Origin: Salinilacihabitans rarus
GTDB taxonomy: Archaea; Halobacteriota; Halobacteria; Halobacteriales; Natrialbaceae
Assembly: GCF_024296665.1 (NCBI RefSeq)
Contig: NZ_CP100762.1
Location: forward strand, 1,426,001-1,490,000
Direction of reading: 5' to 3'
Length of the DNA stretch: 64,000 nucleotides
Within the stretch, counting starts at the first letter, position 1. Every line of letters starts with the position of its first letter. The notes beneath the pieces are model-generated. The model was not told where the DNA came from and did no database searches. It was given only the letters and a program-made list of their open reading frames with translations. Positions 6,155 through 10,155 of the stretch are shown one piece after another. The translations under genes were made by a program, and so were the position numbers.

Positions 6155-6797
6155 CGTCTGCGTGGGCTGGTTGCGGTGATTTCGTCGTCCGTTGTTCGGG
6201 TGCCGATTCCGTCGCCGTGTCGTCCGTGCCGCGCGCGAGCGCCGTCGTGCCGGTGCGAGCGATCTCGCGGATGCCGAACTGGCCGAACGCCTCGATCGCC
6301 GCGTCGACCTTCTGGCGGGCGCCGGTGACCTCGACGGTCGCCGTCTCGGGGCTCGCGTCGACGGTCTTGCCGCCGTACATGTCCGCGACGGCGGCGACCT
6401 GATCCGGCCGGGTGGCGTTGACCTTGATCAACGCGAGTTCCCGGCGCATCGCGTCCGGGTCGAGTTCGCGCACCGCGACGACCGGCACGAGCTTTCGTAG
6501 CTGCTTCTCGACCTGCTCGATGCCCGGGTCCGGTTCCTCGACGACGAGCGTGATCCGGGCGTGTTCCTCGTCCTCGGTCGGCCCGACGGTGAGGCTCTCG
6601 ATGTTGAACTGCCGGCGCGAGAACAGCCCCGAGACGTCCGAGAGGACGCCGGGTTCGTGTTTCACGAGCGTCGAGATGACCGTCCGGCGCGGCGGCCGCT
6701 CGGCCTCGACCTCGGGGTCGACCCGGATGCCCATCTCGTTGCGCTTGCCCTCGGGGCTCGGCCGCTCCTCCGGGACGGGGCCGTCGAGTCCGGTCAT
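6147..6797 (-). CDS. ilvN: acetolactate synthase regulatory (small) subunit
   Basis: ACT-domain regulatory subunit of acetohydroxyacid synthase, 216 residues. After a charged halophilic N-terminus the ACT domain begins at [20 protein letters not shown] and continues [18 protein letters not shown], the pattern that binds valine in feedback inhibition. A second half (about residues 120-190) has the [20 protein letters not shown] and [13 protein letters not shown] segments of the long IlvN form. The start at 6797 overlaps the ilvB stop by 4 nt. A much longer open frame continues upstream but lies antiframe within ilvB and is not coding. Confidence 0.94.
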
Positions 6798-8587
6798 AGC
6801 TGCCCCTCCGTCAGCGCGAACCGGCCGTTGTCGCCGCCGCTCGGGACCATCGGGTAGACGTTCGCTCCGGGGTCTATGTGCACGTCGATCACGGAGGGTC
6901 CGTCGTAGTCGAGGGCGGCCTCGACGGTGTCGGCGACCTCGTCGTAGCCGTCGATCCGGAACCCGCGTGCGCCGAACGCCTCCGCCAGTTTGTCGAACGA
7001 CGGACACCAGTCGTACTCCGAGGCCGCGTGGCGGCTCTCGTAGAAGGCGTCCTGCCACTGGCGGACCATCCCGATGTACTCGTTGTTGAGCACCGCGACG
7101 GTGACGTCCAGATTTTCGCGGACCGCGACGGACAGTTCCTGGATCGTCATCAGGAACGAGCCGTCGCCGTCGACGCAGACGACCTCCTGGTCGTCGTCGG
7201 CCGCGAGGCGCGCGCCGATCGCGGCCGGCAGCCCGTAGCCCATCGCGCCCAGGCCGTGGCTCGAAACCCACGTCCGTGGCTCGGTGAACGTCCAGTACTG
7301 GCAGGCCCACATCTGGTGTTGGCCGACGCCCGTGGTGACGATCGCGCGGTCGCTCGTGGCCTCGTCGAGCGCCTCGACGACGAACTGCGGCTGCAGCGGC
7401 CGGTCGTCGGGCGTCTCGTAGGCCATCGAGTAGTCGGACTTCCACTGCTGGCACTGCGCGCGCCACTTGGTCGCCCGCGGCGACTCCTCGACCTCCTCGG
7501 CCAGCTGGGTCACGACGGTCTCGGCGTCGCCGACCAGCGGGTACTCCGCGTGGATGTTCTTGCTGATCTCGGCGGGGTCGATGTCGACGTGGATGACCTC
7601 CGCGTCGGGCGCGAACGTCTCGATGCCGCCGGTGAGGCGGTCGTCGAAGCGCGTCCCGATCCCGATCAGCGTGTCGCAGTGGGTGATCGCCATGTTGGCG
7701 TAGCCGGTGCCGTGCATCCCGGCCATCTCCAGCGAGAGTTCGTGGTCCTCGGGGAACGCGCCGATGCCGGGCATCGTCGTCACGACCGGGATCTCGTGTT
7801 CGGCCGCGAACTCGCGACACGCCTCGGTCGCGTCGCCCTTGATCACGCCGCCGCCGAGCAGCATGACGGGTCGTTCGGACGCCTCGATCCGCCGGGCGGC
7901 CCCGCGGACCACCTCGGGGTCGGCCCGCTCCTGAACCTCGTAGCTGTCCGGGGTGTGTGGCTCCCGTGGCTCGCGGTCTGTCTCGCCCGTGGTGACGTCT
8001 TTCGGCAGGTCGACGACGGTCGGCCCCGGCCGGCCCTCGCCGGCGAGCGCGAACGCCTCGCCGACGTCGTCGCCGACGCGGTCGGCGTCCATCGAGAACG
8101 TGTTCGCCTTCGTGATCGGCGCCGTCACGCCCGTCGTGTCGGTCTCCTGGAAGGCGTCGTTGCCGACCATGTCGGTCGGCACCTGCCCCGTCAGGGCGAT
8201 CATCGGGTCCGAGTCCATGTCGGCGTCCGCGATGCCCGTGACGAGGTTGGTCGCGCCCGGCCCCGACGTGGCGAGGCAGACGCCCGGTTCGCCCGCGACG
8301 ATCCCGTACGCGTCCGCGGCGTGGGCCGCGCCCTGCTCGTGGGCCATCGTCACGTGGCGAACCTCGGAGTCGTACAGCGCGTCGTAGACGGGCATGATCG
8401 CCCCGCCCTGCACGCCGAAGGCGTACTCGACGCCCGCGGTCTCGAGCGCGCGGACGACCGCCTCGGCGCCCGTCGTTACGGGCGTCGCTCCGGGAGTCGT
8501 CTCGGCGCTCGACGTCGCGTCGGCGTCGTCCGTCGGTTCGCGATCCTGTTCCGCTCGTGGGCTGACCGATGTCGCGCGTTCGCTCAT
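6794..8587 (-). CDS. ilvB: acetolactate synthase large (catalytic) subunit
   Basis: Thiamine-diphosphate enzyme that condenses pyruvate with pyruvate or 2-oxobutyrate, the committed step for Val/Leu/Ile. The 597-residue protein has an approximately 35-residue acidic leader, then the N-terminal ThDP domain with the glutamate motif MAHEQGAAHAADAYG (about residue 84), the FAD/central domain, and the C-terminal ThDP motif VDGDGSFLMTIQEL...LNNEYIGMV. The start at 8587 is fixed by a strong GGAGG Shine-Dalgarno 6 nt upstream, unusual here because most genes look leaderless. That implies a long 5' leader (about 190 nt from the TATA element at 8805-8813), which contains a candidate leader peptide and hairpins. 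Confidence 0.96.
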   Translation of the reverse strand: MSERATSVSPRAEQDREPTDDADATSSAETTPGATPVTTGAEAVVRALETAGVEYAFGVQGGAIMPVYDALYDSEVRHVTMAHEQGAAHAADAYGIVAGEPGVCLATSGPGATNLVTGIADADMDSDPMIALTGQVPTDMVGNDAFQETDTTGVTAPITKANTFSMDADRVGDDVGEAFALAGEGRPGPTVVDLPKDVTTGETDREPREPHTPDSYEVQERADPEVVRGAARRIEASERPVMLLGGGVIKGDATEACREFAAEHEIPVVTTMPGIGAFPEDHELSLEMAGMHGTGYANMAITHCDTLIGIGTRFDDRLTGGIETFAPDAEVIHVDIDPAEISKNIHAEYPLVGDAETVVTQLAEEVEESPRATKWRAQCQQWKSDYSMAYETPDDRPLQPQFVVEALDEATSDRAIVTTGVGQHQMWACQYWTFTEPRTWVSSHGLGAMGYGLPAAIGARLAADDDQEVVCVDGDGSFLMTIQELSVAVRENLDVTVAVLNNEYIGMVRQWQDAFYESRHAASEYDWCPSFDKLAEAFGARGFRIDGYDEVADTVEAALDYDGPSVIDVHIDPGANVYPMVPSGGDNGRFALTEGQL

Positions 8588-8593
8588 CGATAT

Positions 8594-8616
8594 CCTCCGG
8601 CCGCCGGTCGGCGGCC
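8594..8616 (-). promoter_or_regulatory. ilvB Shine-Dalgarno abutting a perfect hairpin
   Basis: On the minus strand a 7-bp perfect stem, GGCCGCC-GACC-GGCGGCC (8616-8599), is followed without a gap by GGAGG (8598-8594), 6 nt before the ilvB ATG. The hairpin could limit ribosome access to the Shine-Dalgarno or be opened by an upstream translating ribosome. The arms are exact in the sequence; the regulatory role is inferred. Confidence 0.6.
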
Positions 8617-8695
8617 CGTGTGTGATCCTGTCATCTGTTGGCTTGCTGGTCGCTGGGAAAACGGTACGACGTCGGGTCGGAGGGGATGGGGTGTC

Positions 8696-8711
8696 GGGGC
8701 TAGGCTGCCCC
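8696..8711 (-). promoter_or_regulatory. hairpin spanning the stop codon of the ilvB leader ORF
   Basis: Minus-strand bases GGGGC (8711-8707) and GCCCC (8700-8696) form a 5-bp stem around a 6-nt loop that holds the leader ORF's last Ala codon and the start of its TAG. The same GGGG could instead pair with the CCCC runs just downstream, so alternative folds are possible. A ribosome stalled on the preceding Leu-Ile-Ile-Val codons would block this stem. This is a geometric observation only. Confidence 0.4.
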
Positions 8712-8780
8712 TACGATAATGAGCGGAGCGAACGCGCCGCTGTCGGCCGTGCGAGCCGAGGCGGGTGCGCGTCGCGTCAT
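8700..8780 (-). CDS. candidate ilvB leader peptide (26 codons, Leu-Ile-Ile-Val near its end)
   Basis: A short open frame, ATG at 8780-8778 and TAG at 8702-8700. It begins MTRRAPASARTA and ends APLIIVGAA. The ATG sits about 30 nt from the TATA element at 8805-8813, the spacing of leaderless haloarchaeal starts, so it would be translated from the very 5' end of the ilvB mRNA. The codons CTC ATT ATC GTA specify the three amino acids this operon makes, six codons before the stop and next to a hairpin. This resembles bacterial ilv/leu leader peptides used in attenuation. I do not know of a described archaeal example. It could be chance in a GC-rich leader; conservation would decide. Confidence 0.5.
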   Translation of the reverse strand: MTRRAPASARTADSGAFAPLIIVGAA

Positions 8781-8804
8781 TACTCGTGTCGTAGCGAGCC
8801 CCCC

Positions 8805-8814
8805 GAATATAATC
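8805..8814 (-). promoter_or_regulatory. ilvB operon TATA element
   Basis: Minus-strand reading GGATTATATTCGG places a good archaeal TATA box here. Transcription would begin near 8780, exactly at the leader ORF's ATG, leaving about 190 nt before ilvB. It lies just beyond the leuA stop (8922), so ilvB is not obliged to be read through from leuA. Confidence 0.6.
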
Positions 8815-8921: not shown

Positions 8922-10155
8922 TCAGGCCCGCACCTCCTCTCGCTCGGCCGTTCGTACGACGCCCTCGGCCTCGGCGAACCGTTCGAGGTCGGCGACCGTG
9001 ACCCGGCGCTTCTCGGCGCCGTAGTCCTTGACGCGGCGGGTGACCGCGCGGACCTCCGTCTCGGTGGGGTCGTAGCCGATCTCGACCAGTCGCTCGCGGA
9101 CGGAGTTGGTGCCCGTGTGCTTGCCCAAGACCAGTTTCCGGGTGGCGCCGACCATCTCCGGCGTCATCACGCCCGGTTCGAACGTGTCGGCGTTCTCGAT
9201 GACGCCCGCGGCGTGGATGCCGCTCTCGTGGGAGAAGGCGTTGCCGCCGACGACCGGCTTGTTGCCCGGCACCGTGATGTCGCTTCGCTGCTCGACCAGT
9301 CGGGACAGGTCGGCGATCCGGGTCGTGTCGATCCCGGTGTCGGCCTGATAGACCGACTCGACGGCCATCACGAACTCCTCGTAGGCGGCGTTGCCCGCGC
9401 GCTCGCCGATCGAGTTGACCGAGACCTGCGCCTGATCGGCGCCGGCCTCGATGCCCGCCAGCGCGTTCGCGGTCGCCAGCCCGAAGTCGTCGTGGGTGTG
9501 GACGTCGATCCGCGCGTCGGTGTGCTCGCGGACCTTCGCGATCAGGTCGGCGAACCGCCCCGGGGTCGCGACCCCGCACGTGTCGGGAACGTTGATCCAG
9601 TCGGTGCCCGCCTCGGTGACGGCCTCGACGACTTCCACCAGGAAGCGCTCGTCGGTGCGCGTCGCGTCCATCGGCGAGAACATGCAGGTCGCTCCCGCCT
9701 CGCGGACGCGCTCGACGGACTCGACCGCTCGCTGTACTACCTCCTCCCGGGTGGCGTGCATCGAGTCTTCGATCTGGACGTCGCTCGTGCTCACGAAGAC
9801 GTGAACCATCCCGACGCCCGAGTCCAGCGCCGCCTCGACGTCGGCCTCGACGACGCGGGCTAACCCGCAGACCGTCGTGGACGTCGATTCGGCGATGTCG
9901 CGGACCGCCTCGAACTCCGCGTCGGAGTTGACGGGGAACCCGGCCTCGACGACGTGGGTCCCCATCTCGTCCAGCGCCGCGGCGATCTCGCGTTTGTCGT
10001 CGGAGGAGAACGAGGTTCCCGGGGACTGCTCGCCGTCCCGCAGGGTCGTATCGAAGACGCGTGCCGTCTCGATTTCGTCAGTGGAATCTAACGTGCCCTG
10101 GAAGAACTCGACCGCCCTGAGGGGTCTCAGAGCCGGTGTCGTGTGGTGTCGACAT
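8922..10155 (-). CDS. leuA: 2-isopropylmalate synthase with an apparent +1 frameshift near the start
   Basis: Claisen condensation of 2-ketoisovalerate with acetyl-CoA, first step of leucine synthesis. The body carries FDTTLRDGEQSPGTSF, the HTHDDFGLATANAL metal motif, VNSIGERAGNAAYEE and GGNAFSHESGIHAAG. At about 400 residues it is the short archaeal type without the usual regulatory LeuA-dimer domain, so (R)-citramalate synthase is a weaker alternative. No in-frame ATG, GTG or TTG exists between the promoter and the catalytic DTTLRDGEQ motif; only a CTG at 10130. A leaderless ATG at 10155, about 30 nt from a TATA box, opens another frame (MSTPHDTGSET...). Removing one base from the C4 run at 10124-10121 would join the frames as MSTPHDTGSET-LRAVEFF. 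I annotate from that ATG and flag the frameshift. Confidence 0.85.

Follow-up and report, generated by a model that had tools for sequence, protein, structure and literature searches.

The leader of the haloarchaeal acetolactate synthase gene, ilvB, most likely encodes an amino-acid-sensing leader peptide, in which stalling at Ile and Val codons would couple the branched-chain amino acid supply to ilvB expression by means of the archaeal machinery. In the present study, comparison of ilvB leaders showed a short upstream open reading frame (uORF1), its conserved frame and codons, a hairpin, a pyrimidine tract and a second open reading frame (uORF2). The actual translation of uORF1, the sensing of charged tRNA, the masking of the hairpin and premature termination were inferred, as was the direction in which expression would respond, and no expression data were at hand for this leader. 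Leader-peptide control was nevertheless considered the best reading, because the ORF, its codons and the hairpin are conserved, because the Ile and Val codons concerned are rare, and because uORFs with cognate codons also precede pheS and trpS.

The window, which is the whole stretch of DNA that was analysed, covers 64 kb of a haloarchaeal chromosome of 3.62 Mb. In it, ilvB is preceded by a leuA-like gene (8922 to ~10118), and the features of the leader between them are listed in Table 1. An earlier note, made from the sequence alone, had proposed leader-peptide control of ilvB by a 26-codon ORF with Leu-Ile-Ile-Val codons that stops inside a short GGGGC/GCCCC hairpin, and both the ORF and the position of its TAG stop within the hairpin held. 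The TATA box that it placed 30 nt from the ATG was likewise confirmed, with TTATAT beginning 32 nt before the ATG, and its 190-nt leader was near the 193 nt counted from the uORF1 ATG to the ilvB ATG. The perfect 7-bp second hairpin that it described at the ilvB Shine-Dalgarno was present (~7-8 bp), but was conserved only in close relatives, and the conserved uORF2 was absent from that account. In a single genome, a 26-codon ORF with four consecutive aliphatic codons is weak evidence on its own; uORF1 was regarded as non-random because it is conserved across relatives. Rfam searches with the window and with the leader gave no match at the gathering threshold or at E <= 1 (amino-acid leaders, T-box and riboswitches), and an NCBIfam scan of the leader peptide gave no match.

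Table 1. Positions of the ilvB gene and of the features of its leader in the window.
Feature	Position	Strand	Evidence or remark
ilvB, acetolactate synthase large subunit	6794-8587	minus	TIGR00118, 706 bits
TATA box TTATAT of the presumed leaderless promoter	8807-8812	minus	sequence; starts 32 nt before the uORF1 ATG
uORF1 leader peptide MTRRAPASARTADSGAFAPLIIVGAA, then stop; 26 codons	8700-8780	minus	frame conserved into Ile-Val-Gly-(Ala/Val); N-terminal sequence not conserved
Regulatory codons CTC ATT ATC GTA (Leu Ile Ile Val)	8712-8723	minus	codon conservation, rarity
Hairpin GGGGC-AGCCTA-GCCCC around the uORF1 stop TAG (8700-8702)	8696-8711	minus	pairing, compensatory changes
C/U-rich, G-poor tract immediately 3' of the hairpin	8670-8695	minus	base composition across 124 leaders
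GTACCGTTTTC block, T4C run	8657-8667	minus	shared leader block; function (terminator, FttA loading site or second promoter) inferred
uORF2 MTGSHTGRRPAAGGYR, then stop	8584-8634	minus	TGA overlaps the ilvB ATG (ATGA)
Second hairpin GGCCGCCG/CGGCGGCC, ~7-8 bp, within uORF2, before the ilvB Shine-Dalgarno	8599-8616	minus	close relatives only

The ilvB loci compared comprised 80 from public genomes, the locus of the window together with 19 from relatives, and 30 more from genomes picked because most of them were without the strict form of the motif. Each locus was examined upstream of ilvB, and a few species were counted twice. Under relaxed inspection, the uORF1 core was found in 126/130 haloarchaeal ilvB leaders, including the variant L112, which reads Val-Val-Gly-Ala-Arg-stop and stands outside the set of 124 leaders used below, yet also has GTA. 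The core was absent from four of the 130 leaders, namely L131 and three of the deep families f9 and f11 (L100, L140 and L141), in which the identity of IlvB was only 57-59%. In its strict form, ATYGTAGGGGN{1,9}AGCCCC, the pattern had a single match in the genome of the window, at the ilvB leader. Within the class, it occurred in 249/392 genomes and 59/86 genera, nearly always once per genome, with ~10 control matches in 392 genomes; IlvB itself was present in 390/392. In the 26 genomes compared for position, the pattern lay on the same strand, ~110-350 nt before ilvB. Outside Halobacteria, the strict pattern was met in 6/312 genomes, which is about chance level, and the class-wide matches therefore show that the ilvB leader element is a haloarchaeal feature. 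These loci share ancestry, and clustering into 73 groups removes this kinship only partly. The comparison with relatives, on which the earlier note had rested the main sequence-based refutation of its proposal, was passed, since conservation across class Halobacteria holds for the ORF, for its Ile/Val codons and for the first hairpin. Its suggestion of leader-peptide control is supported as the best reading, while the transcript start, the starvation response and the downstream switch remain inferred.

A TATA-like box was located 29-35 nt before the uORF1 start in 119/124 leaders, a spacing consistent with a leaderless transcript. No out-of-frame ATG was found 26-38 nt behind the box in the leaders analysed, and among the cluster representatives with a box the start was in frame in 69/69. 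The choice of start is partly circular, as the in-frame start served as the reference for locating the box. In L098 and L122, the uORF1 start is possibly GTG rather than ATG. As a separate observation, the stretch from the TATA box to the uORF1 ATG (window 8781-8806; same place in L001-L048) contains a palindrome in some Natrialbaceae (CCCTCGAGGG, GTGGTCGAGACCAC); its half-length was at least 5 in 20/124 leaders, and it is a possible repressor operator.

The distance from ATG to GTA varied from 15 to 50 codons among the 73 cluster representatives, and the frame was kept throughout. N-terminal differences were spread over the three codon positions (0.31/0.36/0.32) without a third-position excess, so that translation, and not the peptide, appears to be kept there. 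The end of uORF1 showed a different picture. The four codons ending at GTA included 2-4 Ile/Leu/Val codons in 124/124 leaders, against an N-terminal fraction of 0.16 for these residues. The codon before GTA was an Ile codon in 120/124 (ATT in 104 and ATC in 16), and ATT accounted for 55/70 of the Ile codons at this place in the cluster representatives. In the genes of the window, by comparison, the share of ATT among Ile codons is 2.4%, and that of GTA among Val codons is 1.9%. GTA itself was present in 124/124, but this set had been collected by a GTA pattern. The codon after GTA was GGG in 122/124, followed by GCN or GTN. The stop was TAG in 103 leaders, TAA in 14 and TGA in 7, and lay three or four codons after GTA in 113/124; the other eleven leaders had it seven or eight codons beyond GTA, and a longer stem, such as GGGGCG/CGCCCC, was present in several of them. 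The strict Ile-Val order, together with the T shared at the end of the preceding codon (CGT, ATT, GGT), suggests an added nucleotide or peptide constraint. With respect to the features expected of an attenuator, a short ORF in the leader of an amino-acid gene was provided by the conserved in-frame ORF, whose translation is inferred, and the clustering of the regulated amino-acid codons near the ORF end was also met.

The GGGG after GTA was paired in 122-123 of 124 leaders, and a stem of 5-11 bp with a loop of 3-10 nt was possible in nearly all of them. In 114/124, the stop codon lay in the loop or overlapped the right arm. An RNA hairpin is supported because the changes within the stem are compensatory: position +7 was C-G in 96 leaders, T-A in 7 and G-C in 1, position +8 was G-C in 15, T-A in 11 and C-G in 5, and the stem of L122 is CGGGCC/GGCCCG in place of GGGGC/GCCCC. 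In some genera, the stem reaches through GTA (GTAGGGG/CCCCTAC) and even through ATTGTA. The 20 nt that follow the hairpin contained 5-11% G, ~45% C and ~27% T across the 124 leaders. A U-run after the hairpin, as expected of an attenuator terminator, was not found, and a C/U tract stood in its place; TTT occurred within 40 nt of the hairpin in 56/124 leaders, compared with 40 expected from shuffles. The RNA from the hairpin to ilvB was G-poor and open, with an MFE of -0.21 versus -0.45 kcal/mol per nt in the ilvB coding region and a shuffle z of +0.7 versus -0.7 (36 loci). Leaders of Natrialbaceae and Haloferax share CCGTTTTC or CGTTCTC ~27-29 nt ahead of the uORF2 start codon, with GCACCGTTTTC as one example of the block there. 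An alternative (antiterminator) pairing was not revealed by the MFE fold of the leader in the window, which was not an exhaustive search, and only one hairpin was generally conserved. A classical bacterial terminator/antiterminator arrangement was thus not seen, since the hairpin lacks an adjoining long T-run and the fold gave no antiterminator pairing. The second hairpin was rejected as a general sequestrator of the ribosome-binding site; a stem of >=5 bp was found in only 31/86 leaders having a Shine-Dalgarno-like motif, and this hairpin is lineage-limited.

Premature termination behind the first hairpin is conceivable, although it has not been shown. In Haloferax volcanii, terminators consist of T-stretches with a C at their end, and for one hairpin put to the test, 59% of transcripts were terminated in vivo (PMC7237163). 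FttA/aCPSF1 prefers U-rich RNA (PMC11616081). On these grounds, such termination is regarded as plausible.

The second open reading frame, uORF2, was present in 110/124 leaders. The first ATG after uORF1 was in frame with the TGA overlapping ilvB in 109/114 leaders and in 62/65 cluster representatives, and the encoded peptide was basic and variable. Its start mostly lay 58-110 nt behind the uORF1 stop. Previous work in H. volcanii has reported that ATGA overlaps couple translation efficiently and that reinitiation is lost at ~20 nt or more (PMC10666635). Reinitiation from uORF1 to uORF2 was accordingly rejected as a candidate, the spacing exceeding the measured range. Because coupling through ATGA is strong while reinitiation over ~20 nt is lost, it is inferred that uORF2 probably recruits its own ribosomes and hands them to ilvB.

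Similar leaders were found before two other genes. Upstream of pheS lies a leaderless uORF that terminates with GFGFFFAR or similar residues; it reads MALESHGRAGLALQPRRPRSGFGFFFAR in the genome of the window (L147; G000:C1:2594870-2595703, minus) and is conserved over several families (L143-L161); it carried 2-4 Phe per peptide, or 12.6% of residues in 16 peptides. One trpS paralogue (L165; G000:C1:2573650-2574516, plus; ten loci, L163-L172) has in front of it a uORF encoding Trp-Arg-Trp or a similar sequence and a conserved ADS motif, with a TAA stop and a pyrimidine-rich tract ~20-30 nt later. The same test at trpC gave no Trp leader uORF, and trpC serves as a negative control. The occurrence of cognate-codon uORFs before three genes strengthens the sensing reading for ilvB. 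Hairpins around the pheS and trpS uORF stops were not above those of shuffled flanks, so that the ilvB, pheS and trpS leaders may not share one downstream mechanism. Babski et al. listed uORFs before pheS (26 aa) and a tryptophan-tRNA ligase gene (23 aa) among the long 5' UTRs of H. volcanii, with mapped start sites (PMC4983044 Table 2); ilvB is missing from that table, and the section bearing on it offers no codon or attenuation reading.

A separate observation concerns the start of leuA (window 10078-10155, minus; L192-L210), where a +1 programmed frameshift is possibly needed. In 18/18 loci that carry the conserved GAGTTCTTCCAGGG-like site, an ATG ORF (MSTPHDTGSETPQGGRVLPGHVRFH, then stop, in the window) runs over the beginning of the leuA frame, each time with the same relative frame. 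Seven of these loci (L194, L195, L203, L204, L205, L208 and L210) lack any ATG, GTG or TTG in the leuA frame ahead of the site. In a review of archaeal recoding, leuA goes unmentioned.

In the proposed mechanism for ilvB, whose steps are inferred, a leaderless transcript would start at or just before the uORF1 ATG, and the ribosome would reach a group of two to four Ile/Val/Leu codons, most of them rare, which lie immediately ahead of a GC hairpin and partly within it. This hairpin usually contains the uORF1 stop codon. With ample charged tRNA, the ribosome would finish uORF1 and depart, the hairpin would form, and RNA polymerase would be released in the G-poor, pyrimidine-rich stretch by a T-stretch and/or FttA/aCPSF1. 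When Ile or Val is short, the ribosome would wait on its codons and cover the hairpin as well as the flanking RNA, and the polymerase would proceed through uORF2 into ilvB, whose translation would be coupled to uORF2 via ATGA.

The chief alternative, which remains possible, is a translational switch without premature termination, in which occupancy of uORF1 alters RNA folding or the ribosome supply at uORF2, and uORF2 in turn feeds ilvB. The conservation of uORF2 with its RTGA overlap, the efficient coupling at such overlaps in H. volcanii (PMC10666635) and the open RNA of the leader region speak for it. Against it stand the distance of mostly 58-110 nt between the uORF1 stop and uORF2, when reinitiation is lost at ~20 nt, and the fact that no conserved pairing was identified between the uORF1 region and the ilvB start.

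Two further alternatives appear unlikely. In the first, a metabolite would cause the nascent C-terminal IVG(A/V) to arrest the ribosome close to the stop, in the manner of TnaC and tryptophan; the C-terminus is indeed the sole conserved part, adjoins the stop and has a strict Ile-Val order. However, only about four residues are conserved, the identity of the ATT and GTA codons is kept beyond the amino acid, so that the indifference to synonymous codons of the TnaC type is not met, and the pheS and trpS uORFs bear their own cognate codons instead. In the second, uORF1 would be merely a ribosome loader or a microprotein gene without amino-acid sensing, in keeping with the uORFs reported in long 5' UTRs of H. 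volcanii (PMC4983044 Table 2). The N-terminus, however, drifts without a third-position excess, which disfavours a functional microprotein, and conservation extends to the rare Ile/Val codons at ilvB as well as to the cognate codons at pheS and trpS. That the core is a DNA operator or a purely structural RNA, with the ORF incidental, is very unlikely: GGGGC-N-GCCCC is a dyad and TATTGTAGGGGC is conserved in its nucleotides, third positions included, but this reading is disfavoured by the frame kept over varied lengths, by three different stop codons at the same place, and by loops of 3 to 10 nt and compensatory stem changes, neither of which is expected of a fixed operator.

For the leader-peptide reading, the closest published element is the Corynebacterium ilvB-II motif, or ilvBNC uORF attenuator (PMC10272879). 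Both elements have a short uORF with Ile/Leu/Val codons before ilvB, lengths divisible by three, one occurrence per genome and nearby hairpins. The Corynebacterium element is bacterial, with a predicted U-run terminator and antiterminator and a reporter that was repressed in rich medium (PMC10272879), whereas the haloarchaeal leader is archaeal and leaderless, with one generally conserved stop hairpin, a C/U tract and a uORF2 overlapping ilvB. Next in likeness are the ivbL-ilvBN, pheM-pheST and trpL attenuators of Escherichia coli, which use leader peptides with cognate codons. The same amino-acid logic is seen at haloarchaeal ilvB, pheS and trpS, although without a canonical intrinsic terminator, with an archaeal RNA polymerase, at trpS instead of the trp biosynthetic operon, and with a negative result at trpC. 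Leaders with tnaC-type and Rho-dependent control place their codons near the stop, followed by G-poor, C-rich, unstructured RNA, and the haloarchaeal ilvB leader shares these codons near the stop and the G-poor, C-rich, open RNA behind it. To our knowledge, Rho does not occur in archaea; unlike in Rho-dependent control, the factor in question, FttA/aCPSF1, has a U-rich preference (PMC11616081), and its role at the ilvB leader is inferred. The haloarchaeal element was not filed as a bacterial-type attenuator because its hairpin is not followed by a U-run and an antiterminator did not emerge from the fold.

In bacteria, leader-peptide attenuation is a textbook mechanism. There is evidence for coupled transcription and translation in haloarchaea, and FttA is an archaeal Rho-like terminator; given this evidence of coupling together with FttA, the prerequisites for archaeal attenuation exist. 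The earlier note knew of no archaeal case, and no archaeal leader-peptide attenuator was found in the open-access literature searched, which does not exclude a prior report. The ilvB leader appears to be the first archaeal case of bacterial-style amino-acid-sensing leader peptides. A bolder reading, to which we lean only slightly, is that haloarchaea possess a class of ribosome-sensing leader peptides, including at least those of ilvB (Ile-Val), pheS (Phe) and trpS (Trp), that act via transcription-translation coupling and archaeal termination. If this is true, attenuation would be documented in archaea for the first time, as a system that arose independently of the bacterial ones or in parallel with them. 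A small, conserved and genetically tractable element such as that at ilvB would make directly testable the long-standing question of whether archaeal genes are regulated by the position of the ribosome during transcription.
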